This document shows, piece after piece, positions 27,229-56,065 of a stretch of 64,000 nt of DNA. The DNA is taken from positions 62,001 to 126,000 of the forward strand of contig NZ_JAUQUB010000005.1 in assembly GCF_030580675.1 (NCBI RefSeq), read 5' to 3'. The DNA is from Antiquaquibacter soli. Lineage in GTDB: Bacteria > Actinomycetota > Actinomycetes > Actinomycetales > Microbacteriaceae. Below the pieces are notes generated by a model. The model did not search any database. It saw only the letters and a program-made list of their open reading frames with translations, and was not told where the DNA came from. Numbering within the stretch: position 1 is the first letter of the stretch; the number at the start of each line of letters is the position of its first letter. Position numbers and translations under genes: made by a program.

Positions 27229-27300
27229 GCCTCTGTAGCTCAATGGAAGAGCAGTTCCGTCCTAAGGAAAGGGTTGGGGGTTCGAGTCCCTCCAGGGGCA
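27229..27300 (+). tRNA. tRNA-Arg (anticodon CCU)
   Basis: A 72-nt cloverleaf: acceptor GCCTCTG pairs with CAGGGGC, D-arm GTAGCTCAATGGAAGAGC, anticodon loop GTCCTAA with CCT at the anticodon position and flanking T and A, T-loop TTCGAGT. CCA is not encoded. It reads the rare arginine codon AGG. Its 3' end is the apparent integration site for the element to the right. Confidence 0.95.
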
Positions 27301-27301
27301 C
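27282..27301 (+). repeat. Candidate attachment core in tRNA-Arg 3' end (copy 1)
   Basis: tcgagtccctccaggggcac, the T-arm and acceptor 3' strand of tRNA-Arg plus one base. It is repeated exactly at 27467-27486. Confidence 0.8.
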
Positions 27302-27350
27302 GAATGCGAGAAGCCCCGCAGCGTGCGCCGCGGGGCTTCTCGCATTCGTG
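27299..27350 (+). terminator. Terminator directly after tRNA-Arg
   Basis: A perfect 21-bp stem (27299-27319 with 27330-27350) around a 10-nt loop; the left arm begins inside the last two bases of the tRNA. Confidence 0.85.
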
Positions 27351-27395
27351 GTCGTGGGTGGCACCTCGGAGCGCTGGGGTCCCCGCCTCGGCAGT

Positions 27396-27450
27396 CCAGA
27401 ATGTCGCTTGTCGACTGACTCGCAGGCTTCGCGCTGCCGCGACATTCTGG
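27396..27450. repeat. Intergenic inverted repeat after tRNA-Arg
   Basis: ccagaatgtcgc (27396-27407) and gcgacattctgg (27439-27450) form a perfect 12-bp stem with a 31-nt loop, the same design as the repeat at 27122. Confidence 0.8.
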
Positions 27451-27466
27451 CGGCCTAGGTGGGGCG

Positions 27467-27486
27467 TCGAGTCCCTCCAGGGGCAC
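27467..27486 (+). repeat. Direct repeat of the tRNA-Arg 3' end (copy 2, candidate att site)
   Basis: A 20-bp exact copy of 27282-27301, 185 bp downstream. Such copies are left when an element integrates at a tRNA gene. Confidence 0.8.
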
Positions 27487-28234
27487 CGCTGGGGGTTCAA
27501 CCCCCTGGGGAACGGTGATGACCCCAACATTCTTCTCCGTTCCCGCGACTTCAGCGATCGTGGCGTTGGGGTTGCGGCCCTTGCCGCGGCCGGCACAGCA
27601 CCGTTGGGGGCTCAACTTGCACCGCGGCGTCGTGGCAATTTGCGCGGACCACTTGCGGTGCCGGTCTCTCCTCAGCCTCCTGATACCTGACCGCGCGGGG
27701 TCCTTCCATCGCGTTATCAATCCAGAGCGACCATCGCCCAAGGTCGCCAGCACGAGAGTGGGGGTCGACTGCCAGCGTGATCGTCAGCAAGCAACCGATG
27801 TTGCCTCAGACCGTCGCGAGGGCGGCGAGGCACTGATCGCGACCTTGAAGAATATTCTTGTTTGTCGCCTGGCGCCTGAGTGACGACGACCTCCCGACGC
27901 GCGCCTGGGCAGATGCTGGAAGCCGGTTCGTTCATCAGGCGCAAAAGGTTGGGAGTCGACGGTGCGGACCCGATCCTCCGATTCGGAAGTTCCTGAAGAA
28001 TTCGCGAAGCGTGGCGTGCTCGCGTGCCGCGACACCTTCGCGAGCTTCTGACATGGCCGACGTCGCTCGAGCTGCGATGATGTCATCTCATAGGAAACGC
28101 TCTCCAGCGTGGGATAGAAATGCCCACCTGCGCCATCATGATTCATCTGGAGTGTGCCGCTAGTCTTGTCGTTGCAGGGCACGAGGGCGGGCCGACGGCA
28201 GCGGCCAGCGGATGGACGAGGGAGATCAAAAACG

Positions 28235-28873
28235 ATGCCGTCCCAGGACCTAAGGGCCGCACTCGACCGGGACCTTCTCTTCGGCCTTGTTCAGCAGGCG
28301 ATCGCCCGACCCGACCGGATTCCTGCTTCTCGTCACGAGAACGGCTTCGAGAAGTTGACGCTCGGCGTCGATCCCGCGACGGGCGCGCTCATCCGTGCCC
28401 ACTTCTGGAGTCGTGTCGACAGCGAATCCGACGCGGCTACCGTCGGCAATCTGCATAACCATCGCTGGGATTTCGCGTCCTTGGTTCTGCGCGGCGAGCT
28501 CCGGATCGCGACGTACGTCGAGTCGTCCGCGGGCGAGGACTACTACTACTATCGGTACTGGCCGGAACGCGGGGACGAGTTGGAGTTCATCGGCGTCACT
28601 CGACTCGCACGCTATGCGATCGTGTCCCTCGGCGCGGGATCCGAGTACGACGAGCCGGCGGAGGAGATCCATCACGCGTCACCCCGTGCCGGCGTTGACA
28701 CGGTCACGGTGATGGCACGGAGCCCAGGTCAGAAGACCTTCGCAGATGTCTATTCCCTGAGGGCGCGCCCGGACGTGGTCGAGAGCTCATCCGATCTGCC
28801 GATGAGCCGAGTCGCGGAGCTCCTTGACGACTTGGCCGGCCTCGTCGAGGCCGCGAGACTTCGCAGGAGGTAG
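28235..28873 (+). CDS. Cupin-like protein of the island
   Basis: The 212-residue cytoplasmic protein has a cupin-like pattern: L-H-N-H-R-W-D-F with H74 and H76, a following L-V-L-R-G-E-L turn, and a second E-I-H-H pair at 144-147. These would form a metal site in a small beta-barrel, as in cysteine-dioxygenase-like or sugar-binding cupins. I cannot name a substrate. ATG at 28235 has GGGAGA upstream. Stop is 8 nt before the next gene, so it heads a three-gene operon with the membrane-hairpin protein and the AbiEii-like protein. Confidence 0.55.
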   Translation: MPSQDLRAALDRDLLFGLVQQAIARPDRIPASRHENGFEKLTLGVDPATGALIRAHFWSRVDSESDAATVGNLHNHRWDFASLVLRGELRIATYVESSAGEDYYYYRYWPERGDELEFIGVTRLARYAIVSLGAGSEYDEPAEEIHHASPRAGVDTVTVMARSPGQKTFADVYSLRARPDVVESSSDLPMSRVAELLDDLAGLVEAARLRRR

Positions 28874-28881
28874 GGAGCGTC

Positions 28882-30144
28882 GTGTCAGCAGTTCTCCGCC
28901 GCGCCGCCATATCGATGCAGATCCCTTTGGCGCTGAGCGCCGACCCGGATTCGACCTGGCAAGTGGGCCCCTTCAACAACCGATGGCGTGAAGGATCTGA
29001 CCGGGAGCTATCCGGCGATCGCGTGGGCCGGAGGAAGTATCTGATTGAGGGTCTCGACGAAATCCTCTACAACAACCGCTGGCATCAGTCGAGTCCCTCA
29101 CTGTCGCTGCCGCCGGTTGCAGGGGTCACGAAGGTCAAGGCGGTCGAAGTTTGGCGGCTGCCGACGACTGGCCCGCGTCCCAACGGGATCTTGATCGTTC
29201 ACCTCTCGATCGACCCCGACGCCGACGTCCTGAGGGTCATCAACAAGGTCGTCAATCACAACCCCAGCCACGGGGGTGCCATGCGCCTGTGGGTTGACGA
29301 GATCGTCGACCCTTGGGGTCGCATCGTGTCGTCGCACCGTCGCGCGGAACACGTGTCTCTCGTGACGAGCGACTCTTCCACGATGCCCGACACGCCCCTC
29401 GTGAAGGTCTCCAAGAAGATCGACGGTCACAACCTGTGGCTTGCGAGCCTGGAGGCGTCGGGGCGGTACGGGCCGGACGTCACGATGATGCCGAACGTCG
29501 GCACCTACATCCCCATGTCGAATCGGATCCGTGGTCTTGTCGGCCGCGGGGCGATCGCTCTTGTCGGCCTGCTGCCGGACGATGGAAGCTCAAGAGGTGC
29601 GACCGGTTTTGACTACGGGGGCCTCGAGTTCTTTGCGGAAGGTCTCTACACCGACACCCTGCTCTTCGCCCGCCTCCAACGGATCATGGTCGGAGAATTG
29701 CGCGATGAGTTGGCCGAAGCGCGGAACAGCGGAACCGGCAAGCAGGCGCTCTGGCGACTCGAGCGGCGACTCGTCGACTTCCGCCGCATCTACTGGCGCA
29801 CCGATATCGCTCCGCAAGGCAGCCAAGACGACTTCCTGCGGGCGTACCAGGCCGAGAACGCGGTTCCCGCCCAGCTAGCTGAGGTTGCCGCGCAGTTGAC
29901 GGAGTACTCGGCGCAGGTTCAGCGCACGGAGCAGGAGATCACCAACGCGCTGCTGGGGCTCGTCACGGTTGTCGCCCTTCCGATCAGCTCCGCGATTGCG
30001 ATCTGGGCGGGAATCGATGAGCGCACGGTCTGCCAGCTCCTCATTGCGCTCGGGATCGCCATGGCCCTGGCCGCTGTCCTCGTCGCGACCCCGGCGGCGC
30101 GTTCGCTCCTGAAACCACTGTTTAAGAAGAAGCATGTGTCGTGA
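28882..30144 (+). CDS. Unrecognised protein with C-terminal coiled coil and two-helix membrane hairpin
   Basis: The 420-residue protein has a large soluble N-terminal part (1-300) of no recognised family, a helical, likely coiled-coil stretch (about 305-352), and two membrane helices (about 357-377 and 384-403) with a short loop between, then a basic tail (K-P-L-F-K-K-K). The topology recalls CorA-like channels but there is no G-M-N motif. A soluble sensor joined to a short membrane hairpin is also the design of many abortive-infection effectors; that is inference. GTG at 28882 after AGGAGG. It overlaps the next gene by 4 nt (GTGA). Confidence 0.6.
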   Translation: MSAVLRRAAISMQIPLALSADPDSTWQVGPFNNRWREGSDRELSGDRVGRRKYLIEGLDEILYNNRWHQSSPSLSLPPVAGVTKVKAVEVWRLPTTGPRPNGILIVHLSIDPDADVLRVINKVVNHNPSHGGAMRLWVDEIVDPWGRIVSSHRRAEHVSLVTSDSSTMPDTPLVKVSKKIDGHNLWLASLEASGRYGPDVTMMPNVGTYIPMSNRIRGLVGRGAIALVGLLPDDGSSRGATGFDYGGLEFFAEGLYTDTLLFARLQRIMVGELRDELAEARNSGTGKQALWRLERRLVDFRRIYWRTDIAPQGSQDDFLRAYQAENAVPAQLAEVAAQLTEYSAQVQRTEQEITNALLGLVTVVALPISSAIAIWAGIDERTVCQLLIALGIAMALAAVLVATPAARSLLKPLFKKKHVS

Positions 30145-30977
30145 TTGCCGCCAGATGGGAAGCACTCCGCGTCGTCAGCGGCTTGGTCGTCCTCGGTCTC
30201 CTGCCCGAGTCGCTCGGACGCGGTGGGAAGTGGCGACTCTTCGGGAGTTGGTCGATCCTCCTGCAATCGGAGGAACTCACGCGGCTTCCGCAGGACATCG
30301 ACATCCAGCTCTCCTCTGGGGGTCCGACGGCCCCGACGGTGCTGGACGAATGGCGACGATCGAGCGGGCCATTCGAACTGAGATCGGGACGAGCACGCGC
30401 GGTGACGTTCTCCGACCCGCGGACCAGTCCGAACGCTTCCTGGCAGACGGTCGACCTGCTTCACCGAGGCGAGGTCGTCGCGGAGGAGGCGATCAACTGG
30501 GTGTGGCCCGCGTCGGTCGACGATCGCGACATCGAAGCCCTCCACGCTCGGGATGATGCATGGATCGACCTGAGACTGACCCCGGCGTTCTCTGTCGCGG
30601 CTTACGCGCTTCCGGAGATCGCCGACCTCCCACTGGCCCGAGTTCGTGCCGCGAGCCGCGAAGAGTGCATCGCGCAGAAATGGACGCGGATCGCCATGAT
30701 TCGCACCGGTGCTCGTCGCCACACGCGTTGGCAGGACCTGGCCGACGTATACGACCTGGTCCTCGGGGAGTCTGCATCGCTCAATTCTTCGCGCCTCGTC
30801 GACTGGCTCAGAGAGAGAGCCGGTGCCCGGGGGCTCGGCTGGCCGATCCTGCTCTCTGAGCCTCCATCCGAATGGCTCGACGTCTGGGACTCCTACAACT
30901 TTCGATCCGGAGTCTCGCGTCCCCGTCCAGCCGACTGTACGAGAGAGTTGAACGCATTCCTGCGGGACCTCGCCTAA
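30141..30977 (+). CDS. AbiEii/AbiGii-like nucleotidyltransferase
   Basis: The 278-residue protein has a nucleotidyltransferase-fold N-terminus: F-G-S-W (34-37) and the metal-binding Q-D-I-D-I with D52 and D54, then a C-terminal E-E-C-I-A-Q-K-W-T-R-I ... R-W-Q-D-L-A-D-V-Y-D-L segment typical of AbiEii toxins. AbiEii proteins are toxins of type IV toxin-antitoxin and phage-abortive systems that modify RNA or tRNA by adding nucleotides. No AbiEi antitoxin adjoins it, unlike in classic AbiE. GTG start overlaps the stop of the membrane-hairpin gene, so translation is coupled. Confidence 0.7.
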   Translation: MIAARWEALRVVSGLVVLGLLPESLGRGGKWRLFGSWSILLQSEELTRLPQDIDIQLSSGGPTAPTVLDEWRRSSGPFELRSGRARAVTFSDPRTSPNASWQTVDLLHRGEVVAEEAINWVWPASVDDRDIEALHARDDAWIDLRLTPAFSVAAYALPEIADLPLARVRAASREECIAQKWTRIAMIRTGARRHTRWQDLADVYDLVLGESASLNSSRLVDWLRERAGARGLGWPILLSEPPSEWLDVWDSYNFRSGVSRPRPADCTRELNAFLRDLA

Positions 30978-30997
30978 AATCCGCCCAGTTGTCCCGT

Positions 30998-32350
30998 TCA
31001 GGCGTCGCGACTGAACGGGACGAGCAGTTCGTGGTACCCGCGGACCCCGAGATCTACCTTCGTCAGGACGGCGGGCCCGCCCTCCTGATGGCTGACGTTT
31101 CCGACAGCGGCGGCGAGTCTCTGCTGCGTCGGCCCCGTGACGGGTTCGCCGTAGAGGTAGCGAATCCGCTCGGGTGAACCGTCTGGCGCCAACTTGGTGA
31201 TGCAGAGTGCTGCTTCGACGCGTGCGAGCGAATCGCGGAGCGAGCGCCCAATCTTCAGTTCCACGATGCCGACCCCGATGGGGAGCACATCCTGTCTTCG
31301 CCCGAAGGCATCGAGGTCGCGAACGATCGTGCCCAGGGTTCGTGCGTGCGCAAACGCGAAGATTCCGTCTCCGCGGGCGAAGATCGGGCACTCCAATCCT
31401 TTGATAGACGCGAGGGCCTCCAAGGTGTGCTGAAGCCGTCGGGTGACGGAGAGGCGGATTCGATAGGCGTCCGCCAAGAAGTCGGCGAAGGAGATGGTTC
31501 CGCGCCTGAAGTCCTCCAGCCCGGGCAACAGCAGGCGCCTCAACCCGTCCCAGCGTCCGGGCACCCCGTCGAAAAGGCCGTGCACATCGGTTGCCAACAG
31601 GTAGTAGTCGTCCTGCGCCCGACGAGACGCGAATTCGGCGTAGAACTCGTTCTCCCTGATCAGTTTCGGGAAATGAAGGTCGCGAACGTCTTCTGTGAGG
31701 GGGGCATCCGTCAGCAGGTCGGACGCGTCACCACGCCAAGGAGGCGTCGTGAAGCACTTCACGAGATCTCGGTCGTCCTCGACGCTATCCGCGCGTGCCA
31801 GCGCCTCTTCGATCGCGCTTTCCGCGTGCCAGGACGGAAGCTTGCGCTTCCGTGTCACGGCGCTGGCGATGGATGCGATCCACCCCGCACGCTGAAGCAG
31901 ATCGGCAGCTTCGTCGGGCGCCATCGTCACCTCCAGCCGGCATCGTGTGAGTGGGCCGAGAAGGTAGGACGCGAGCTCGGTGGGCGGGCGTTCATGACTG
32001 GAGTTGAAGGGCTGCGGCTCGCTGACCGCGAACGACAACAGTGTCTTGCCGAACATCGTGTGGACGAAAGGGCCGGCACGATGCGCCTGTCCGACCTCCC
32101 GCAGGTCGCGTCGCACCTGCCCGAGCGCGAGAAACTGACTGTAGGGCCGCGACTCGGTGTGGGTCGGCACTGATTCGCTCCGGGCCTGAACCCAGACGTC
32201 GATCGTGGCGTCGCTTGGACCGTTCCGGAGATCGCGGAGGATCTCGCCGGCGAAAGCTCCGCTGTCGGGCGGATCGCCGTTTCGAAGGTATCCCGCGGTC
32301 GCCGAACGGTCCGCCACTCGATCAAGCGGCCAGTAGTTGTGTTTGACCAT
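30998..32350 (-). CDS. Palm-domain (GGDEF/CRISPR-polymerase-like) protein
   Basis: The 450-residue soluble protein has an N-terminal region of about 240 residues of unknown family and a C-terminal palm-like domain: strand with D255 (L-L-A-T-D-V-H-G-L-F), an inserted helical stretch, a second strand with D328 (F-A-R-G-D-G-I-F-A-F), a strand P-I-G-V-G-I, and a final A-A-L-C-I-T-K helix as in GGDEF domains. The two acids are 73 residues apart, longer than in GGDEF (about 43), and the GGDEF motif is degenerate, so it is unlikely to make c-di-GMP. A nucleotide cyclase or oligonucleotide synthase is suggested, not shown. ATG at 32350. It converges on the AbiEii-like gene with a 20-nt gap. Confidence 0.55.
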   Translation of the reverse strand: MVKHNYWPLDRVADRSATAGYLRNGDPPDSGAFAGEILRDLRNGPSDATIDVWVQARSESVPTHTESRPYSQFLALGQVRRDLREVGQAHRAGPFVHTMFGKTLLSFAVSEPQPFNSSHERPPTELASYLLGPLTRCRLEVTMAPDEAADLLQRAGWIASIASAVTRKRKLPSWHAESAIEEALARADSVEDDRDLVKCFTTPPWRGDASDLLTDAPLTEDVRDLHFPKLIRENEFYAEFASRRAQDDYYLLATDVHGLFDGVPGRWDGLRRLLLPGLEDFRRGTISFADFLADAYRIRLSVTRRLQHTLEALASIKGLECPIFARGDGIFAFAHARTLGTIVRDLDAFGRRQDVLPIGVGIVELKIGRSLRDSLARVEAALCITKLAPDGSPERIRYLYGEPVTGPTQQRLAAAVGNVSHQEGGPAVLTKVDLGVRGYHELLVPFSRDA

Positions 32351-32406
32351 GGCATCACGCTATCGCCGCGTCGACAGCGGCCTTCGACACCCGTCACAAT
32401 TCGAGG

Positions 32407-33165
32407 GTGGAATCTCTCGACATGTCGACTGGCTTCGGCTGGATCTCTCACGAGTACGTGCAGTCGCGCGGCGGCGCCGGCCGCATTTCGGCGCTCGCGG
32501 ATCTGATCGACCCCTACTTGTGCCGCGACGGTATCGTCGTGGAGCTCGGAACCGGCCCCGGTCAGCTCGCTGCGAGACTGACGACCGCGACCCGGAGAGT
32601 GGTCGGAGTTGACATCTCGCCCGAGATGATTCGACTGGCATCGCCGATCCTCGACGGGAATGCGGTCGAGGCGGACGTCGAGCATCTTCCTTTCGACGCG
32701 GAGACGTTCGATGGTGCGATCGCCGTATGGGTTCTCAACCACGTGGCAGATCCTCGTCGGGCCCTTTCGGAGGCGAGACGCGTTCTTCGCCCCGGCGCGC
32801 GGATGTTCTACCTGTCCGGTATCCCCTCGCATCCGGAGTGGGACGTCATCGGCAGTCTCCTTCAGCGGCTCGACGTCGTCAGAGCGGATCGCGTCGAGCG
32901 CGAGACGGCGATCGTGTCTCTCGCGGAGTCGTGCGGGTTCCGTGTGGTGACCGCCGGTGACATGGTGGTGAAGTTCTCCCAGCGACCCGACGGAATGGCT
33001 GATCGAATCGCCACTCGCTCGTACGGTCACCTTCGAGACCTTGACGAAGAAACGTGGGCGACGATCGTGCAACCGGTCGTCGATGAACTGCGTCGAATGG
33101 ATGACCATGACCGTCATCGCAACCGGCAGAACATTCACGCATTCGCCGTCTTCGAGAGGATGTGA
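32407..33165 (+). CDS. Class I SAM-dependent methyltransferase
   Basis: The 252-residue protein has a Rossmann methyltransferase core: motif I V-V-E-L-G-T-G-P-G-Q-L, acidic V-D-I-S, and motif IV A-V-W-V-L-N-H-V-A-D-P. It resembles UbiE/small-molecule methyltransferases; the substrate is unknown. GTG at 32407 is used (ATG four codons later is an alternative). It is divergent from the palm-domain gene with only 56 bp between, and is followed after 9 nt by the HAD phosphatase gene. Confidence 0.75.
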   Translation: MESLDMSTGFGWISHEYVQSRGGAGRISALADLIDPYLCRDGIVVELGTGPGQLAARLTTATRRVVGVDISPEMIRLASPILDGNAVEADVEHLPFDAETFDGAIAVWVLNHVADPRRALSEARRVLRPGARMFYLSGIPSHPEWDVIGSLLQRLDVVRADRVERETAIVSLAESCGFRVVTAGDMVVKFSQRPDGMADRIATRSYGHLRDLDEETWATIVQPVVDELRRMDDHDRHRNRQNIHAFAVFERM

Positions 33166-33174
33166 TCCGCGGTC

Positions 33175-33756
33175 ATGGACGTGCCGCTCTCCTCGCCGGG
33201 TCCCGGACGACTCTCCGCCGCGGACTTTCATTCGTGGTCGACGATCGCGACCTGCGTGCTGGCGGCATCTCATCGGCTTACCCGAGGTTCCCGGCCCGTC
33301 GTCGCAGACCTGGACGGGACGCTCACCGATCCGGGACATCGACGCCACCACCTCGCGTCGAGCATCCCCGATTGGCTCGCATTCAGCCTTGCGGCGAAGA
33401 ACGACCCGCCACTCCTCCCTGAGATCGAGTGGCTCGACAGCCACAGCGCCGAGCGGCCGGTGGTGATAGTCAGCGGTCGCCCGTCGATCGCCATGCAACT
33501 GACCCAATCCTGGCTCGAGCGACACGAAGTCCGGTGGGACGCCATCGTCCTGCGCCCTCCGGGCGACACTGTGCGCGGTCTCGAGCACAAGATGCGTGTT
33601 CTGACCGCACTCAGCGAACTGGGGATCGAACCGGAGTTCGCGTTTGACGATTCGTCCGAAGCCCGAGACGCCTATGAGGCAAGAGGTGTCGAGTGCCGAA
33701 CCCTGCCGGGGACCACGTCGCCCTCATTCGCGTCGAACAGTACACCCGACCTTTGA
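33175..33756 (+). CDS. HAD-superfamily phosphatase, Pnkp 3'-phosphatase type
   Basis: The 193-residue protein has the HAD motif D-L-D-G-T-L with D45 and D47, then V-S-G-R-P (motif II), L-R-P-P-G-D with E-H-K (motif III) and F-D-D-S (motif IV). The order W-L-x-R-H ... V-L-R-P-P-G-D-T ... K matches the 3'-phosphatase domain of T4 polynucleotide kinase. That family repairs RNA or DNA ends; acting on nucleotide ends here would fit beside an NTase, but this is inference. The kinase domain is absent. Confidence 0.7.
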   Translation: MDVPLSSPGPGRLSAADFHSWSTIATCVLAASHRLTRGSRPVVADLDGTLTDPGHRRHHLASSIPDWLAFSLAAKNDPPLLPEIEWLDSHSAERPVVIVSGRPSIAMQLTQSWLERHEVRWDAIVLRPPGDTVRGLEHKMRVLTALSELGIEPEFAFDDSSEARDAYEARGVECRTLPGTTSPSFASNSTPDL

Positions 33757-33810
33757 ATGGGCGGTGATGGGAAAACGTCAGTCGCGTCCGCGAACTGATC
33801 GGTACATTTG

Positions 33811-33838
33811 GGGTTGGAAGGTCACTCCAGGGGCACCG
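33811..33838 (+). repeat. Decayed copy of the tRNA-Arg 3' end (candidate right att site)
   Basis: gggttgg and ctccaggggcac match the tRNA 3' part with a short deletion between them; ctccaggggcaccg (33825-33838) is identical to 27475-27488. It marks the right boundary of the accessory segment. Confidence 0.55.
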
Positions 33839-33878: not shown

Positions 33879-34655
33879 CTAGGCGTTGACAGCGGCCATG
33901 AATGCGCGAGTCAGCGCGTTCCAGAGGTCGCTGCTCACTCGCTCGTATTCGTCGGAGTCACCCTGGACAGAGTCGTTCCACGACCCCATCCCCCCGAAAA
34001 TCCAACCGTGAGTGGCCGCCGCGAGGAGCTGATGGCGATCCAAAGGCAACGAACCCTGGGGCACCATTTCGGGGTAGTAGGCGCATTCGGGACTCTCCGC
34101 TGAAAGCTGCGACCGCGCCCGCTGCATCACGGTCGCCCACCCGGACTCTCCGCTCCGCGCCGCGAAGTCTCCGAGCGCCTGCAATGCGGTGTCGAGTTCG
34201 ACGGCGCTCAGGCGGACGTCTGGAGCGGGGGCGGCGAGGGTCGTCCACTCTCCGGTCACGGTGACTCGCCAGATCCGGCGATCGGGGGCCGATGGGTTGG
34301 CGACCTCCCAGCGCGCCCTCCAGAGCACGGGTCGAACTCCCACCGACACCAGTCCCCAGTCGTTGCCGTTGGCGAACGCTGAGGCGAGCCACGGTGACAT
34401 ACCGCCTGCCGCCGTGTTGAGGGTCAGGCGAACGTGCTGGGCGCCAGTATCTCGGACGGCGTCGAACCAGCCGCCGGTGCCCTCCGGCGCCCGATCGACC
34501 CGACCGAGGCCCGAGGTGACGGTCGAGAACTCCCCGATGAACTTGAACGTGTCGTCGATCCACAGCAGATCGACGGCTGGCGGCTTCGCATCCGCCGCCA
34601 GCCATTGGTTCGCGCGCAGGGCGAGATCGATCAGCATTGCGAGTCCGCCGTTCAC
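33879..34655 (-). CDS. Hypothetical protein, 258 residues
   Basis: A soluble protein of no recognised family. It is rich in Trp and in beta-strand-like stretches and has no signal peptide or membrane helix. It lies just outside the candidate right att site. The frame opens with GTG at 34655; an internal ATG is another possible start. No operon partner is close. Confidence 0.65.
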   Translation of the reverse strand: MNGGLAMLIDLALRANQWLAADAKPPAVDLLWIDDTFKFIGEFSTVTSGLGRVDRAPEGTGGWFDAVRDTGAQHVRLTLNTAAGGMSPWLASAFANGNDWGLVSVGVRPVLWRARWEVANPSAPDRRIWRVTVTGEWTTLAAPAPDVRLSAVELDTALQALGDFAARSGESGWATVMQRARSQLSAESPECAYYPEMVPQGSLPLDRHQLLAAATHGWIFGGMGSWNDSVQGDSDEYERVSSDLWNALTRAFMAAVNA

Positions 34656-35835: not shown

Positions 35836-37881
35836 CTATTTCGTGATGACGATGTCCCCGATCTGTACGGCCCACGGCGTCGCATCCGAGATCGTGGCTC
35901 GGAGGTACGTCGTGCCGGCGGGCAGGTTCGCCGTGGGGGTGAACGTCGTCCGCGACCAGTAGTTCGCGGTCGCCGTCGGGGCGGTCGTGTTCGTCGCGAC
36001 AGTGGTCCACGTCGTGCCGTTCGTCGACGACTGCCAGGTGATCGCAATGGTCGACCAGTAGTGGTAGACCCGGGCGGAGAAGGTCTTCATCCCTGCCAGC
36101 GACCAGGTGACCGAGCCGGCCGAGGCATCCGACCGCGACACCCGCGACGCGTCTCCAGCCATCTGGTTCATGGGGCCGGTGGTGTCGAGCACCATGTTCG
36201 CCGAGTGCGACGTCGTGAGGTTCCAGTTGTTCAGCGGGTCGCCGAGGGAGCCGGGGTCCGTCATCGTGTTCGCCTCGTGGAAGCCGCGGCTCGGCACCGC
36301 CGTCGGCGACAGGACGTTACCGAAGTAGTCCTTGCCGCCGTTGCCGACGATGAGCGTGCCCGACCCCTTCGCGGGCGACGTGCTCGAAATCGTGTAGCCG
36401 GCGACCGAGGTGAGGCCGGTGGGTGCGGTCGTCGACGGGGAGACGAGCAGCGGGTTCGAGGTGAGCTTGTGCGGGTCGGCCGGCTCGCTCGAGGGGTGGT
36501 TGCCGTAGAAGACGTTGTAGTCGAAGACGGCACCCGCGGTGTTCGGGTAGGTGTAGCCACCCGAGCCGTTGTTCACGACGATGTTGTTGCGGAAGCTCCA
36601 CGCGCCGCCGGTCGAGCCGTCGCATCCGTCGCAGTACATGATCTTGGAGGCGAGGCCCGACTTCACGTAGATCGTGTTGTTGTAGATCTCGGTGTTGATC
36701 GGGACGCCGTACGAGAAGGTGAAGATGCCCTTCTCGCCGCCGTAGCCGTCGTTGACGCTGAGATTGTTGCGCACGGTCAGGTTCGAGGATGCGCCCGCCA
36801 TCATCAGCAGGAACCCGCCCTCGTTGTCGTGGCTGTAGTTGTACTGCACGAGGGTGTCGATGCTCGCGAGGTCGACGTCGAAGCCCTGACCGTCGGTGCC
36901 GTGCGTGAGAGTCCCGTAGACCTCGTTGTACTGCACGACCGCGCCGATGGAGCGCGTCGGCCAGAGACCGGCCGAGGGTGCGGTGGTGGAGTTCTCGATC
37001 GTGCGCTGACCGGCGTTCGCGACGACGTTGCGCTGCAGCATCGCGTTGTACGTGCCGAGCACGAGCACGCCGTCGCTGTCGATGGTGCTGACGGTGTTGT
37101 CCTCGACCTTGACGCCCGTGCTGAGCAGGGGCTGGTCGATGACCCAGTCGGTGAGGGAGAGGCCGGTCGACTCGTCCCAGAACACGATGCCGCCGCGGCC
37201 CACGTTGCTGACCGAGTTGTGGTCGATGCTCACGCCGCTGAAGGAGTCGTTCTCCTGCTCGGCGCGCACGACGATGCCGCCGTTCGAGTGGGCCTCGATG
37301 CCCTGGCACGTGAAGCAGCCGTTGACGTCGCTCACCGTGTTGTTGGTGATGGTGATGCCGCCCAGGGTGCCCGCTCCGTTGTTGTAGACGAGGATTCCGT
37401 GCCGCTGAAGCTTCCAGTCGGCCTCGTTCAGCCCGCCGAAGTTGTCGACGCCCGAGTTGCTCTTCACCGCGAGCCCGCTGATGGTCCAGTACTGCTGATT
37501 GACGAGGTACACGGCGGCGCCGGTGCCCCAGCCGCTCGGGAGGCTCGCGCCGTTGATGAGGGGCTTCGACCCGGTGCCGTAGGAGCTGATGGTGATGGGG
37601 GAGCCGGAGGTCCCGGAGCCGAGCGGGTGCAGCTGCCCGTTCCAGGTCTGGCCGCTCTTGAAGAGGATGCTGTCGCCCGGCTGGAACGTGGTGGCGTTCA
37701 CCTTGGCGAGGGTCTTCCAGGCGGACGACGTGGTGGTGCCTGCGGCGTTGTTATCGCCGGCGACGGCGTCGACGTAGTAGGTCGTGGGAACTGCGGCTGC
37801 GGGGGCGGCGACCGCCGCCAACGAGGCAGCCATCCCGATGGCTGTAGCGGCGAGCGCCGCCAGGATCCGGTGATGCATCAT
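35836..37881 (-). CDS. Secreted right-handed parallel beta-helix protein with C-terminal beta-sandwich
   Basis: The 681-residue protein has a signal peptide (about 1-30, ending A-A-A), then a long parallel beta-helix rich in N-x-N and I-x-N-N-x-V turns (about 60-500), as in pectate lyases, polygalacturonases and alginate lyases, and a C-terminal carbohydrate-binding-like domain (about 540-681). It is probably a secreted polysaccharide-degrading or -binding protein. The ATG at 37881 has AGGAG upstream; the long frame beyond it is not coding. A LacI operator lies 28 nt upstream, placing it in the regulon of the LacI protein at 38071. Confidence 0.83.
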   Translation of the reverse strand: MMHHRILAALAATAIGMAASLAAVAAPAAAVPTTYYVDAVAGDNNAAGTTTSSAWKTLAKVNATTFQPGDSILFKSGQTWNGQLHPLGSGTSGSPITISSYGTGSKPLINGASLPSGWGTGAAVYLVNQQYWTISGLAVKSNSGVDNFGGLNEADWKLQRHGILVYNNGAGTLGGITITNNTVSDVNGCFTCQGIEAHSNGGIVVRAEQENDSFSGVSIDHNSVSNVGRGGIVFWDESTGLSLTDWVIDQPLLSTGVKVEDNTVSTIDSDGVLVLGTYNAMLQRNVVANAGQRTIENSTTAPSAGLWPTRSIGAVVQYNEVYGTLTHGTDGQGFDVDLASIDTLVQYNYSHDNEGGFLLMMAGASSNLTVRNNLSVNDGYGGEKGIFTFSYGVPINTEIYNNTIYVKSGLASKIMYCDGCDGSTGGAWSFRNNIVVNNGSGGYTYPNTAGAVFDYNVFYGNHPSSEPADPHKLTSNPLLVSPSTTAPTGLTSVAGYTISSTSPAKGSGTLIVGNGGKDYFGNVLSPTAVPSRGFHEANTMTDPGSLGDPLNNWNLTTSHSANMVLDTTGPMNQMAGDASRVSRSDASAGSVTWSLAGMKTFSARVYHYWSTIAITWQSSTNGTTWTTVATNTTAPTATANYWSRTTFTPTANLPAGTTYLRATISDATPWAVQIGDIVITK

Positions 37882-37908
37882 TGCGTTCTCCTCCGCGCTG
37901 GCATCGTT

Positions 37909-37926
37909 GCCAAAGCGCTTTATCAC
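37909..37926. promoter_or_regulatory. LacI operator 1 (beta-helix gene)
   Basis: GCCAAAGCGCTTTATCAC. The AAAGCGCTTT core is a perfect palindrome. Two more copies, identical over the last 15 bases, are at 42467-42484 and 46263-46280. Confidence 0.85.
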
Positions 37927-38023
37927 GGCACAGCCTGGCACGGAACGGCAGCCGAGGTCAATGCTCGTGAACGCGATTGTGAGGCCGCGGGGCCGGGGAA
38001 ATAGCGAGCTATCCTCTGGGGTA

Positions 38024-38045
38024 AAAGCGATTCGGCAGCTAGACT
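38024..38045 (+). promoter_or_regulatory. lacI promoter with a degenerate operator
   Basis: AAAGCGATTC (38024-38033) matches the AAAGCGCTTT operator at 8 of 10 positions; TAGACT (38040-38045) is a -10 candidate. Weak autoregulation is possible. Confidence 0.4.
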
Positions 38046-38070
38046 CGAGCGAGACAACTCGGGAGGCTCC

Positions 38071-39132
38071 ATGTCCAATCGATCGGTGCGGCTGGTCGAA
38101 GTGGCCCGCGCGGCGGACGTCTCGCTCGCGACGGCATCCCAGGTCATGAACGGGTCGGGGCGCGTCGCGGAGGCGACCCGCCAGCGCGTGCTCGAGACGG
38201 CGAGACGACTCGACTACCGGCCGAACGCGCTCGCCCGCTCCGTCGCATCCGGTCGCAGCAGCACCGTGGGCATCCTCGCCGAGAACGCGTCCGGCATGTT
38301 CTGCATGCCCGTGCTGGTCGGCGCCAACCGCTCCCTCAGCCGCGTCGACCTCGCGAGCACCCTCTATGACGCGGCGCACGACGTGAAGCTCCGGCGCGAG
38401 CATGTGCGGAGGCTCCAGGCCCGCCACGTCGACGGAGTCGTGGTCATCGGCGAGGGCACCGACTCGCGCAGCGCCTCCGTGTCGCACGAGTTCTCCGGGC
38501 CCGTCGTGTACGCCCTCTCGCGCTCCGACGACCCCCAGGACATCTGCGTGCTGCCCGACGACGCGCACGCCGGCGCGCTCGCCGCGCAGCACTTCCTCGA
38601 GGTGGGGCGGTCGCGCATCGCGCACGTCACGGCCGAGTCCAGCCTGACCTCGGTGCGCGACCGCGAGCGCGGGCTCACCGAGGAGCTCGAGCGCGCCGGG
38701 CAGCGGCTCGTGGATGTCTCGTACGGCTCGTTCACCCGCGACTGGGGTTTCGCCGCCGCCCGCCGCATGGTGGAGGACGGCAGCATCCGCGACATCGACG
38801 CCATCTTCGCGGGCAACGACCAGATCGCGATCGGGTTGGAGGCGCAGTTGCTCGCGTCGGGCATCCGCATCCCCGAGGACGTCGCGATCGTGGGCGTCGA
38901 CAACGCCGCCGGCATGATCGGCAACACCGACCCGTTCCTCACGTCGATCGACTTGCGGTTCGACGTCGTCGGCGCGACCGCCGCCGACCTCGCGGTCGCG
39001 CGCCTCGACCCTGCCGCCGACGACGACAAGCCCACGATCGTGACGGTGCCCGGGATGCTCGTGCCGGGCCGCTCCACGGTGGGCGGCACCACGAGCCCGC
39101 GCTCGCTCGTGCTCGAGTCCCTCATCAGCTGA
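38071..39132 (+). CDS. LacI-family repressor of the polysaccharide locus
   Basis: The 353-residue protein has a LacI helix-turn-helix (V-A-R-A-A-D-V-S-L-A-T-A-S-Q-V-M-N-G, then hinge helix R-P-N-A-L-A-R-S-V-A-S-G) and a periplasmic-binding-type effector domain. Three exact operators and one degenerate one surround it, so it most likely controls the beta-helix gene, the ABC importer, GH2 and the GH78/esterase pair. The inducer is unknown, probably a product of the polymer these enzymes degrade. Confidence 0.94.
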   Translation: MSNRSVRLVEVARAADVSLATASQVMNGSGRVAEATRQRVLETARRLDYRPNALARSVASGRSSTVGILAENASGMFCMPVLVGANRSLSRVDLASTLYDAAHDVKLRREHVRRLQARHVDGVVVIGEGTDSRSASVSHEFSGPVVYALSRSDDPQDICVLPDDAHAGALAAQHFLEVGRSRIAHVTAESSLTSVRDRERGLTEELERAGQRLVDVSYGSFTRDWGFAAARRMVEDGSIRDIDAIFAGNDQIAIGLEAQLLASGIRIPEDVAIVGVDNAAGMIGNTDPFLTSIDLRFDVVGATAADLAVARLDPAADDDKPTIVTVPGMLVPGRSTVGGTTSPRSLVLESLIS

Positions 39133-53846: not shown

Positions 53847-55538
53847 TCACCAGCGCCGGAGCGACACGAGGATGTGCAGCATCGGGAGGGCCGACGCCGC
53901 CATGAGCACCGTGCCGAGCACCGGGTCCGTCGATCGCAGCACGACGCCCGCGATGAGGAGGGCACCGAACACGATCGAGGACGACACCCGCGCCACCGAG
54001 CGCTCGAGCAGGCGCATCCGGCGCTCCACTTCCGGCGATCGCACCGCCACCTGGCCGCGGTCGAGCCGGGTCGCGAGCTCGTCGAGCCGCTTCGGCAGCC
54101 GGGCGAGGGTCGAAGCGTAGCCGATCGCCTGCTGCCCGAGGTCGCGCACGGCGGCCGTGCCCGTGGAGCTCAGCACGGTGCGCGCGAAGGGGTCGACGGC
54201 ATCCCACATGTTGAAGTCGCGGTTGAGGGCGCTCGTCACCCCGGAGATGAGCGAGATCGTTCGGATGAGCAGCAGGAAGCTCTCCGGCAGCTGGAACGGC
54301 ATCGCGCGCATGGTCTCCCCGAACCGCGCGGCGAACTGCTCGAGCTCGCGCGGATCGACAGACTGCAGCTCGGCGACGCCCATTCCGCCGAATCGGTCGA
54401 AGAGGGCGGTCATCGCGCGCTCGAGGTCCTGGGTGTCGGCGGCGGGGAGGAGCACGCCCAGGCGCTCGAGGGAGGTGACGAGGGCGCGCCCGTCGCGGGC
54501 GACGACGGCGAGGATGAAGTCGCGAAGGCCCGCACGCAGGGCGTCCGAGATCTCGCCCATCATGCCGAAGTCGATGAACGTCAACCGCCAGTCATCCGGC
54601 GTGCCCGCCGGGCCGGGCGTCACGAAGATGTTGCCGGGGTGCGGATCGGCGTGGAAGAAGCCGGCGACGAAGATCTGCTGGAACGTCGCCCGGGCGAGCT
54701 CGGAGGCGACCGCCGCCGGGTCGATGCCCGCCGCGGTGAGGGATGCCACGTCGCTGATCTTGATGGCCGTGACATCCGAGAGGGTGAGCACTCGCGCGGT
54801 CGTGCGATCCCACACGACGACGGGCGCCGTGACGCGGTCGTCGTCCGCGAAGTCGTCGGCGAAGCGCTCGGCACTCGCCCCCTCGTGCAGGTAGTCGATC
54901 TCCTGCAGGCTCGTCGCGGCGAACTCCTCGACGAGGGCAGGGGCGTCGACGCGGCGGGAGACGAGGCGCACGCGCGAGAGCCAGCGCCCCACGCGGCGGA
55001 GCGCGGCGAGGTCCACCTCGACGACATCCTCGATGCCGGGCCGCTGCACCTTGATGACGACCTCGTCGAAGCCCAGGTCGGCGGAGATTCCCGGCGACAG
55101 CCGCGCGCGGTGGGCCTGGCCGAGGGATGCCGCGGCGATCGGCTGCGGCTCGACCCACGCGAACGCGTCCTCGAGCCGCATCCCGAGCTCCGCTTCGGCG
55201 AGCTCCCGGATCGCCGCCAACGGCTCGGGGGCGACCTCGTCCTGAAGCCCCTCCAGCTCGCGCGTGATCTCCGGCGGCAGCACGTCGAGCCGCGACGACA
55301 GGAACTGCCCGACCTTGATCATGAGGCCGCCGAGGTCGAGGGCGAGACCGTGGAAGCGCCGCGCGAGCCGTTGCAGCCGGGGGATGCGACCGCGCGCCGC
55401 CACTGCGCCGAGCCCGACCCGCGGCAGCACCAGCTCGAACCACCACGCCTGCACGAGCGCACGGGCGGCAAACCGCATGATGCGGCGGTATCGGGCGCGG
55501 AGGGCGCGCGCGTGCCGTCCCTGCTCGGGACCCGCCAC
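53847..55538 (-). CDS. ABC1/UbiB-family (AarF) protein kinase-like protein
   Basis: The 563-residue protein has the UbiB family motifs: K-x-G-Q-x-x-S-S-R (K-V-G-Q-F-L-S-S-R), the A-alanine loop A-A-S-L-G-Q-A-H-R-A, V-I-K-V-Q-R-P-G, E-x-D-Y, H-A-D-P-H-P-G-N-type (H-A-D-P-H-P-G-N-I) and D-F-G-M-M. Two membrane helices lie at the C-terminus. UbiB members are atypical kinases/ATPases linked to quinone or lipid metabolism. GTG at 55538 starts 2 nt from the PadR stop, so they are in one operon. Confidence 0.92.
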   Translation of the reverse strand: MAGPEQGRHARALRARYRRIMRFAARALVQAWWFELVLPRVGLGAVAARGRIPRLQRLARRFHGLALDLGGLMIKVGQFLSSRLDVLPPEITRELEGLQDEVAPEPLAAIRELAEAELGMRLEDAFAWVEPQPIAAASLGQAHRARLSPGISADLGFDEVVIKVQRPGIEDVVEVDLAALRRVGRWLSRVRLVSRRVDAPALVEEFAATSLQEIDYLHEGASAERFADDFADDDRVTAPVVVWDRTTARVLTLSDVTAIKISDVASLTAAGIDPAAVASELARATFQQIFVAGFFHADPHPGNIFVTPGPAGTPDDWRLTFIDFGMMGEISDALRAGLRDFILAVVARDGRALVTSLERLGVLLPAADTQDLERAMTALFDRFGGMGVAELQSVDPRELEQFAARFGETMRAMPFQLPESFLLLIRTISLISGVTSALNRDFNMWDAVDPFARTVLSSTGTAAVRDLGQQAIGYASTLARLPKRLDELATRLDRGQVAVRSPEVERRMRLLERSVARVSSSIVFGALLIAGVVLRSTDPVLGTVLMAASALPMLHILVSLRRW

Positions 55539-55540
55539 CC

Positions 55541-56065
55541 CTAGTCCTCGGCGAGGATCGCGTAGAGCTTGCGGCGCGCCTCGTCGATCACCTCGACGGC
55601 CCGCTCGGTCTGCTCCGGGGTGCCGCTGTGCGCGACCTGCGCGGCGGCTTGGGCGAGCTTGGCCCCGGCTTTCGGCAACGCGGTCAAGCGCTCGGCACCC
55701 GGGTGCTCGCGACGCTGGCCCGGCAGTGGACCGGAGGCTATTTCCTCGGCGGCTGCGCGACCGGCCTCGGTGAGGGAGTACACCTTGCGCTCGCCGACCT
55801 GCTCCGCAGTCACGAGCCCTTCGTCCGCGAGCAGCTGCAGCGTCGGGTAGATCGAGCCGGGGCTCGGCTTCCAGGCGCCGTGCGTGCGGGCCTCGATCGC
55901 CTGGATGATCTGGTAACCGTGCATCGGCTCGACCGCGAGGGCGGCGAGGATGGCCGTGCGAATGTCGCCGCGGCCCATGCGGCTCGAGGCGCGCGGGGCG
56001 AACGCCTCGCGCAGGCCGTCGACGGCCTCCCAGAGGTCGAATCCGGCGGGGGATGACTGGCGCAT
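55541..56065 (-). CDS. PadR-family regulator
   Basis: The 174-residue protein has a PadR winged helix (H-G-Y-Q-I-I-Q-A-I-E, then K-P-S-P-G-S-I-Y-P-T-L-Q-L-L, and K-V-Y-S-L-T-E-A-G) plus a C-terminal helical arm. It is co-transcribed with the UbiB-like gene and probably represses this operon through the TAACGAT-AC-ATCGTTA palindrome upstream. Confidence 0.93.
   Translation of the reverse strand: MRQSSPAGFDLWEAVDGLREAFAPRASSRMGRGDIRTAILAALAVEPMHGYQIIQAIEARTHGAWKPSPGSIYPTLQLLADEGLVTAEQVGERKVYSLTEAGRAAAEEIASGPLPGQRREHPGAERLTALPKAGAKLAQAAAQVAHSGTPEQTERAVEVIDEARRKLYAILAED

Follow-up and report, generated by a model that had tools for sequence, protein, structure and literature searches.

A small integrase-less island at a tRNA-Arg(CCT) integration hotspot of Antiquaquibacter soli, with a candidate abortive-infection operon

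In the actinobacterium Antiquaquibacter soli, a stretch of 64,000 nucleotides (hereafter, the window; contig NZ_JAUQUB010000005.1, positions 62,001 to 126,000 of the forward strand) contains, immediately downstream of a tRNA-Arg(CCT) gene, six accessory genes, here denoted A to F, that are flanked by copies of the tRNA 3' end. Using the corresponding loci of 18 genomes of the same genus and the relatives of the individual genes as the basis for comparison, we propose that these genes constitute a small island, passive or decayed and lacking an integrase of its own, that occupies an integration hotspot and carries an abortive-infection operon, A-B-C, a reading to which we assign a probability of about 0.45. 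The original prediction for this locus, made from the sequence alone, combined a tRNA-associated island with a parts list suggestive of nucleotide-activated defence; A-B-C is the best-supported unit within this set, and a six-part nucleotide-signalling system is not demonstrated.

The tRNA-Arg(CCT) gene is an integration hotspot

The flank upstream of the tRNA-Arg(CCT) gene is common to all 18 same-genus genomes drawn, the downstream side varies among them, and the tRNA is intact in 17 of the 18. A search for phage-integrase domains, which covered the genome of the window (G000) and all relatives except G689 and G699, located such a domain starting 146 nt past the tRNA in G691 and in G702, and 181 nt past it in G697 (3 of the 16 relatives searched). 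In the remaining tRNA variant, that of G690, the gene is split in the anticodon arm and the 3' half is found some 17.4 kb further on, with a further integrase match, below the cut-off, about 1 kb from the tRNA half. The two halves map to about 15796-15844 of L029 and to 17850-17905 of L137, with an insertion of about 17.4 kb between them and the short direct repeat CCGTCCTAAGG at the break. All four integrase matches in the genome of the window are located on contig C1 and none on C10, the contig of the window, so that the island has no integrase of its own.

None of the genes A to F was detected in the 18 same-genus loci by tblastn (E<=1e-3), in sequence reaching up to about 16 kb past the tRNA, or less than 4 kb in the case of L034 and L035. 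The six genes are thus not kept in this place by close relatives; together with integrase domains near the tRNA in 3 of 16 relatives and repeats above the chance expectation (see below), this supports the original view of the locus as an island.

The genes that occupy the slot downstream of the tRNA were called in the 16 loci other than L034 and L035 (126 genes), and 110 of these were scanned; the 16 dropped comprise all 8 genes of L033, two very long frames and six others. Three of the 110 match an integrase family. Among the families shown by the scans (25 of 37 and 25 of 87), the slot of G702 contains a type IIG restriction-methylation gene and a PADLOC PDC-S54 match, and the contents in other relatives include PADLOC SoFic, PDC-S19 and PDC-S24, ABC transporters and glyoxalases.

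Repeats and boundaries of the island

The tRNA 3' end is present three times in the window, starting at 27286, 27471 and 33821; these three matches at no more than 2 mismatches compare with a mean of 0.04 per shuffled window (100 shuffles, none reaching three). The copy at 33821-33838, which is 18 nt long and identical to the 27471 copy at 17 of 18 positions, is the sole site with fewer than 5 mismatches of 18 on the + strand of 27501-64000. On the left, the copy extends to 27 nt (27460-27486, 93%). The original prediction correctly identified the tRNA-Arg, the six coding-like open reading frames and the 33821 copy, but missed the copy at 27460-27486.

The left copy closes a structured module that is conserved next to the tRNA in congeners (described below). 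It is thus a long-standing structured element that part of the genus has beside this tRNA and did not arise as a scar when the present island inserted, and the island most simply spans 27488 to 33821, with A to F inside. The right boundary is weak, being marked by the 18-nt repeat but not by GC content, which is 0.63-0.68 on either side. The next gene (33879-34655, reverse strand, with a sub-threshold match to DUF6966) is absent from all 29 other genomes searched and so is as private as the island; the accessory region probably continues past 33838. An empty site joining both repeats was not found among the 18 same-genus loci. Further downstream, positions 53874-56065 of the window match L027 5262-7461 (79% over 2.2 kb). 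Given that this stretch lies 26.6 kb past the tRNA here and 7.9 kb past it in G693, shared synteny may resume only at this point. The intervening sequence includes a large reverse-strand frame (35836-38625) which, by eye alone, gives the impression of a secreted beta-helix or pectate-lyase-type protein.

A conserved structured module next to the tRNA

The tRNA is followed by a module of about 145 nt that consists of a terminator-like hairpin and then a long covarying stem, with the copy of the tRNA 3' end (27460-27486; decayed in L034) at its end. Counted from the start of the corresponding 3'-end segment within the tRNA, the copy begins 185 nt further on in the window, compared with 209-216 nt in G694, G698, G695 and G693; in G702, the module is displaced behind a 14.4 kb insertion, and in G690, it accompanies the separated 3' half of the tRNA. 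The sequence of the hairpin at 27302-27350 diverges strongly across species, with self-complementarity, as judged by eye, being retained.

In an alignment of 7 sequences from 6 genomes, both partners vary in 9 of 28 base pairs, and 95.4% of cells are paired. Shuffles scored as high as the observed alignment in 0 of 500 cases on four of five measures and in 7 of 500 on the fifth, and all slid versions scored far lower; the structure used in these tests had been predicted from the alignment itself. The covariance model R1 assigns 107.6 bits to the module of the window, which is one of its training sequences. A covariance model built from six of the aligned sequences detects the module in the untrained genomes G689 (54 bits, just after the tRNA) and G690 (78 bits), as well as a second copy in G698, within a 218-nt direct repeat 9.7 kb apart. 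Overall, the module was found in 7 of the 18 relatives, the others yielding only weak matches (<=28 bits), mostly at the tRNA itself. Across the eight genomes, including that of the window, the mapped examples are window 27302-27488, L022 4062-4273, L025 5586-5805 and 15321-15540, L034 3679-3801, and L137 17661-17790. At L025 5588-15540, a 9.7 kb island lies between 218-nt direct repeats (98% identical) that contain the tRNA end and the structured module.

An Rfam scan of the tRNA region returned only the tRNA above the gathering score, leaving the module without an Rfam family. The module may represent a small RNA that has escaped recognition, or else the remnant arm of an old attachment site. 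An apparent decayed tRNA copy can thus belong to a conserved structured element, which calls for caution when attachment-site scars are read from sequence.

The A-B-C operon and the family of gene B

Genes A, B and C are all on the forward strand, with an 8-nt gap between A and B and a 4-nt overlap between B and C, and from this layout, they apparently form one tightly packed operon. Gene D is located tail to tail with C, convergent to A-B-C and divergent from E-F, so that the layout comprises three transcription units, A-B-C forward, D reverse and E-F forward. For each of the six genes, the codon score is highest in the annotated frame, and three large overlapping frames on the other strands score lower; the codon table was derived from ten frames of the window, two of which have GC3 (the GC content of third codon positions) below 0.6 and are possibly miscalled. 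The GC3 of A to F is 0.74-0.80, compared with 0.89 and 0.91 for the pair of genes that immediately precede the tRNA. The open frame of gene A extends upstream to 28154. The features of the locus are listed in Table 1.

Table 1. Features of the tRNA-Arg(CCT) locus and the island (window coordinates)
Feature	Coordinates	Strand	Evidence
tRNA-Arg(CCT), integration hotspot	27229..27301	+	ARAGORN; Rfam tRNA, 59 bits; kept with upstream genes in same-genus relatives
Terminator-like hairpin after tRNA	27302..27350	+	Inverted repeat I1; cross-species sequences compared side by side
Covarying hairpin module, 3' part = tRNA 3'-end copy (27460-27486); probable left attachment site	27366..27488	+	Covariance model R1
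Gene A, 212 aa, putative cupin enzyme of the HNHRW type	28235..28873	+	Ribosome-binding-like site before start; no family match
Gene B, 420 aa, soluble domain and C-terminal two-transmembrane hairpin, CorA-like candidate membrane effector	28882..30144	+	PADLOC CorA; hydropathy; class relatives; alignment A1
Gene C, 278 aa, AbiEii-type nucleotidyltransferase	30141..30977	+	Pfam and PADLOC AbiEii; GS...DID motif
Gene D, 450 aa, orphan with motifs in a palm-like order (residues 253-386)	30998..32350	-	No family, no relative; weak Cas10 match, marginal GGDEF match
Gene E, class I SAM methyltransferase	32407..33165	+	Pfam Methyltransf_11, 3.4e-23; alternative ATG 32422
Gene F, 193 aa, PNKP-type HAD phosphatase, DLDGT motif	33175..33756	+	Pfam HAD_PNKP, 2.3e-6
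Short tRNA 3'-end copy, 18 nt, probable right attachment site	33821..33838	+	Repeat search, shuffles

The product of gene B matches no Pfam family. It has two hydrophobic stretches by hydropathy, at residues 356-374 and 383-401, and matches the PADLOC CorA profile at residues 250-369 (4.4e-7); the two relatives of B that were scanned produced CorA-like PADLOC matches as well. Relatives of B were detected in none of 298 other genomes of the family and in 14 of 393 other genomes of the class (44-107 bits, several matches covering the C-terminal half only), the genome draws used for the B and D searches being overlapping, so that counts are not additive. An additional relative is present on a plasmid of Streptomyces mirabilis; B had no match in general genome contigs, nor did the B family in viral contigs. 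Alignment A1 of the family comprises 12 sequences, with 24-28% identity to B.

In 15 loci that encode relatives of B, a gene of a NACHT-FGE cluster adjoins the B relative in 12, a methyltransferase cluster is represented in 10 (including L058, where the clustered frame, of 848 aa, is possibly miscalled), and a cluster of proteins of about 95 aa in 6. The usual gene order is methyltransferase, NACHT-FGE, small protein and B relative. Clusters were obtained by single linkage at 1e-5, and the Pfam and PADLOC assignments come from the genes of two of these loci, L054 and L056; a simple gene caller missed the B relatives of L061 and L065, which were found by tblastn, and that of L066 comes from the caller only. 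The L056 protein matches Pfam NACHT (3.2e-6) and FGE-sulfatase (7e-32), and the shorter frame of L054 matches FGE alone. The operon at L056 4383-9359, with similar ones among L054-L068, encodes a methyltransferase, a NACHT-FGE STAND protein, a protein of about 95 aa that is CSD-like at sub-threshold level, and a CorA-like protein with two transmembrane segments; this methyltransferase-NACHT-FGE-CorA operon was not recognised among the open-licence PMC papers listed by literature searches. A putative role in sensing antigens is discussed for STAND proteins that carry FGE-type domains (PMC10907252), and FGS domains are treated in PMC7159879.

Since its relatives adjoin NACHT-FGE genes, B is probably a membrane effector of a conflict system, a prediction by guilt by association. 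The defence interpretation offered originally is accordingly upheld for B and weakly, via AbiEii, for C, but does not extend to D as an established palm enzyme. The 15 loci with B relatives contain none of the genes A, C, D and F, and no locus containing all six families was found.

Genes A, C, E and F

Gene C passes the Pfam AbiEii cut-off narrowly (3.1e-5, residues 160-235, 24.5 bits against a cut-off of 22.5) and matches PADLOC AbiEii at 2.6e-10; it retains a GS...DID motif. Gene A, a putative cupin gene, matches no Pfam, PADLOC or NCBIfam family; it shows 23% identity to a protein from a Vibrio plasmid, with HENGF and HNHRW motifs common to both. Neither A nor C had a match in viral contigs or phages. 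Gene E passes Pfam Methyltransf_11 clearly; it shows no similarity to the methyltransferase of the L056 operon, although in L061 it has a match at 2e-4 in the region of the equivalent gene. Gene F passes HAD_PNKP narrowly (28.3 bits against 27.6). The relatives of F that were viewed occur in phage and repair settings, and those of A and E in metabolite-type clusters. Among the labels initially given to the six genes, then, the methyltransferase is clear, the PNKP-like and AbiEii-like assignments hold narrowly and the membrane hairpin is real, whereas the cupin-like and palm-domain labels have no family match behind them.

Is gene D a palm-domain protein?

Gene D matches no Pfam, PADLOC or NCBIfam family, either at full length or in pieces, and has no relative in general genome contigs, viral contigs, plasmids or phages. 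The two matches obtained besides the genome itself in the draws from the family, phylum and class (G003 and G549), at about 20 bits and antisense to apparent real genes, were rejected, as was a plasmid match at E=5 that falls in an enoyl-CoA hydratase gene. The palm question arises from the order of four motifs, ATDVHG at residue 253, RGDGI at 326, IGVGI at 358 and AALCITK at 380. A phmmer search with the C-terminal 220 aa gave two matches in the PDB, the second of which is a Cas10/Csm1 chain (E=1) with FARGDG aligned to FAGGDD; this match is lost with a shorter query, and D has RGDG where the Cas10 palms have GGDD. Comparison of the last element of D with GGDEF proteins by hhalign is marginal: a score as high was reached by 3 of 150 shuffles in one comparison and by 1 of 200 in another, and also by 3 of 128 real decoys.

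Other comparisons fall within the range of chance. A Hidden Markov Model (HMM) of 10 Cas10 palms assigns 2.9 bits to D, below three shuffles and one frame of the window, with the match at residues 162-195, outside the palm motifs, and a GGDEF HMM assigns 2.1 bits, within the shuffle range. In hhalign, 111 of 200 shuffles score as high as D against Cas10 and 102 of 200 against class III cyclase, and the N-terminal piece of D outscores the palm piece against Cas10 (21.1 vs 12.1). Searches of this genome with Cas10 and cyclase families did not report D. Structure models are of too low confidence to be informative (pLDDT 35 at full length and 43 for the palm piece), and Foldseek returned nothing at E<=0.001. 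A hand-made regular expression for palms, which matched neither D nor known palms (0 of 10 Cas10, 0 of 11 GGDEF), was dropped. The odds that D adopts a palm fold are about even, and those of enzymatic signalling from D to B are well below even. Were D to prove a palm synthase, nucleotide signalling in defence would gain a further, new branch.

Proposed mechanism and alternative explanations

In the mechanism that we consider most likely for A-B-C, the soluble N-terminal domain of B would receive an infection signal, and its C-terminal, CorA-like two-helix part would oligomerise and permeabilise the inner membrane, leading to abortive infection. The AbiEii-type protein C might relay the signal or restrain it, either RNA or a partner protein being the target of nucleotidylation; D might supply or destroy a small nucleotide signal, and E and F could be separate accessory enzymes. 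Several observations weigh against this picture. The cargo of the slot in relatives is mixed and not limited to defence, because transporters and glyoxalases occur alongside restriction genes, and the loci with NACHT-FGE neighbours are not independent, because 11 of the 14 genomes with B relatives belong to one family. The CorA match of B lies mostly ahead of its transmembrane helices and does not span the full CorA protein. In the PDB, no relative was found with a profile of the B family (best E 0.32), and a NACHT sensor is absent from the six genes (Pfam). Likewise, no AbiEi partner of C was recognised among the six genes by Pfam or PADLOC, the viewed Vibrio match of A adjoins genes for dTMP kinase, pyrF (OMP decarboxylase) and an adenylation-domain protein, and the sole plasmid match of E at E<=1e-12 is located in an apparent biosynthetic cluster.

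The last of these points bear on a different explanation, namely, that the six genes arrived separately, biosynthetic or repair enzymes among them, and make up no single system. The original prediction had itself pointed to unrelated metabolic families as an outcome contrary to its defence reading, and this is in part what the settings of A, E and F relatives amount to. The three transcription units and the lack of co-occurrence in the loci of B relatives fit such unrelated cargo, but the close packing of A-B-C and the similar GC3 of all six genes do not, and we regard this explanation as possible but doubtful. Should B and C act instead as a toxin-antitoxin-like module that stabilises the island and has no antiviral role, the overlap of the two genes and the Pfam designation of AbiEii as a type IV toxin-antitoxin nucleotidyltransferase would be accounted for; the lack of a recognised AbiEi among the six genes and the NACHT-FGE link of B relatives make this quite improbable. 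Nucleotide signalling, in which D would be a GGDEF- or Cas10-like palm synthase whose product gates B in the way that CRISPR CorA is gated by SAM-AMP or the Panoptes effector is held back by c-di-AMP, while C, E and F tune or degrade the signal, draws on the motif order of D, its Cas10/Csm1 match and the marginal GGDEF alignment. Also in its favour, SAM-AMP activates the CorA effectors of type III CRISPR (PMC10600005), and mCpol genes are reported also beside other 2TM proteins (PMC12657218). The shuffle-range profile scores, the sensitivity of the Cas10 match to query length, the failure of Cas10 and cyclase family searches to report D, the replacement of GGDD by RGDG, the poor models and the convergent orientation of D relative to A-B-C render it unlikely. 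The most far-reaching form of this idea, in which D is a new, highly divergent Cas10/GGDEF-like synthase with an RGDG active site whose product gates the CorA-like B outside any CRISPR locus, the signal is modified or destroyed by C, E and F, and the same effector family serves in NACHT-FGE operons of other genomes of the class, seems more improbable than any of these. We therefore tentatively retain the integrase-less island with an A-B-C abortive-infection operon as the working interpretation.

Comparison with known defence systems

A search of the open-licence PMC literature for AbiEii, CorA and cupin proteins together found no paper. The locus falls outside four known systems. It is not a CBASS system, there being no match to a CD-NTase (SMODS) among the six proteins in Pfam, PADLOC or NCBIfam, with C matching AbiEii instead. 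Although C passes the AbiEii cut-off, membership of the type IV toxin-antitoxin system AbiE fails on the lack of a recognised AbiEi antitoxin, the partner that overlaps C being a membrane protein. The likeness to Panoptes (mCpol with 2TM-beta) lies in the combination of a candidate palm protein and a protein with two transmembrane segments in one small locus, but membership fails on effector topology: the transmembrane segments of the Panoptes effector are N-terminal (PMC12657230), whereas those of B are C-terminal (residues 356-401). As to an mCpol synthase, D, at 450 aa, shows no mCpol or Cas10 family match and a weak motif signal. D and A-B-C are convergent and do not form an operon.

The CorA effectors of type III CRISPR systems combine a soluble N-terminus with a C-terminal transmembrane region, as described in PMC10600005, and B appears similar in this respect; CorA profiles of PADLOC give matches to B and to both of its scanned relatives, the match in B covering part of its length. 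Assignment to type III CRISPR fails on the absence of Cas10 (PF22335), which was not reported in the whole genome of the island at E<=10 and is matched in 9 of 14 control genomes, and no DHH/DEDD phosphodiesterase or SAM-AMP lyase was recognised among the six genes by Pfam. The family of B is linked instead to NACHT-FGE genes, and the NACHT/STAND-FGE systems are accordingly the context in which its relatives are typically encountered, whereas here B, with no NACHT gene among the six, is encoded together with A and C. If B is an effector, then one CorA-like membrane family is common to NACHT-FGE sensor operons and to a sensor-less operon, and killing of the CorA type would be a portable module that is not tied to CRISPR and SAM-AMP.

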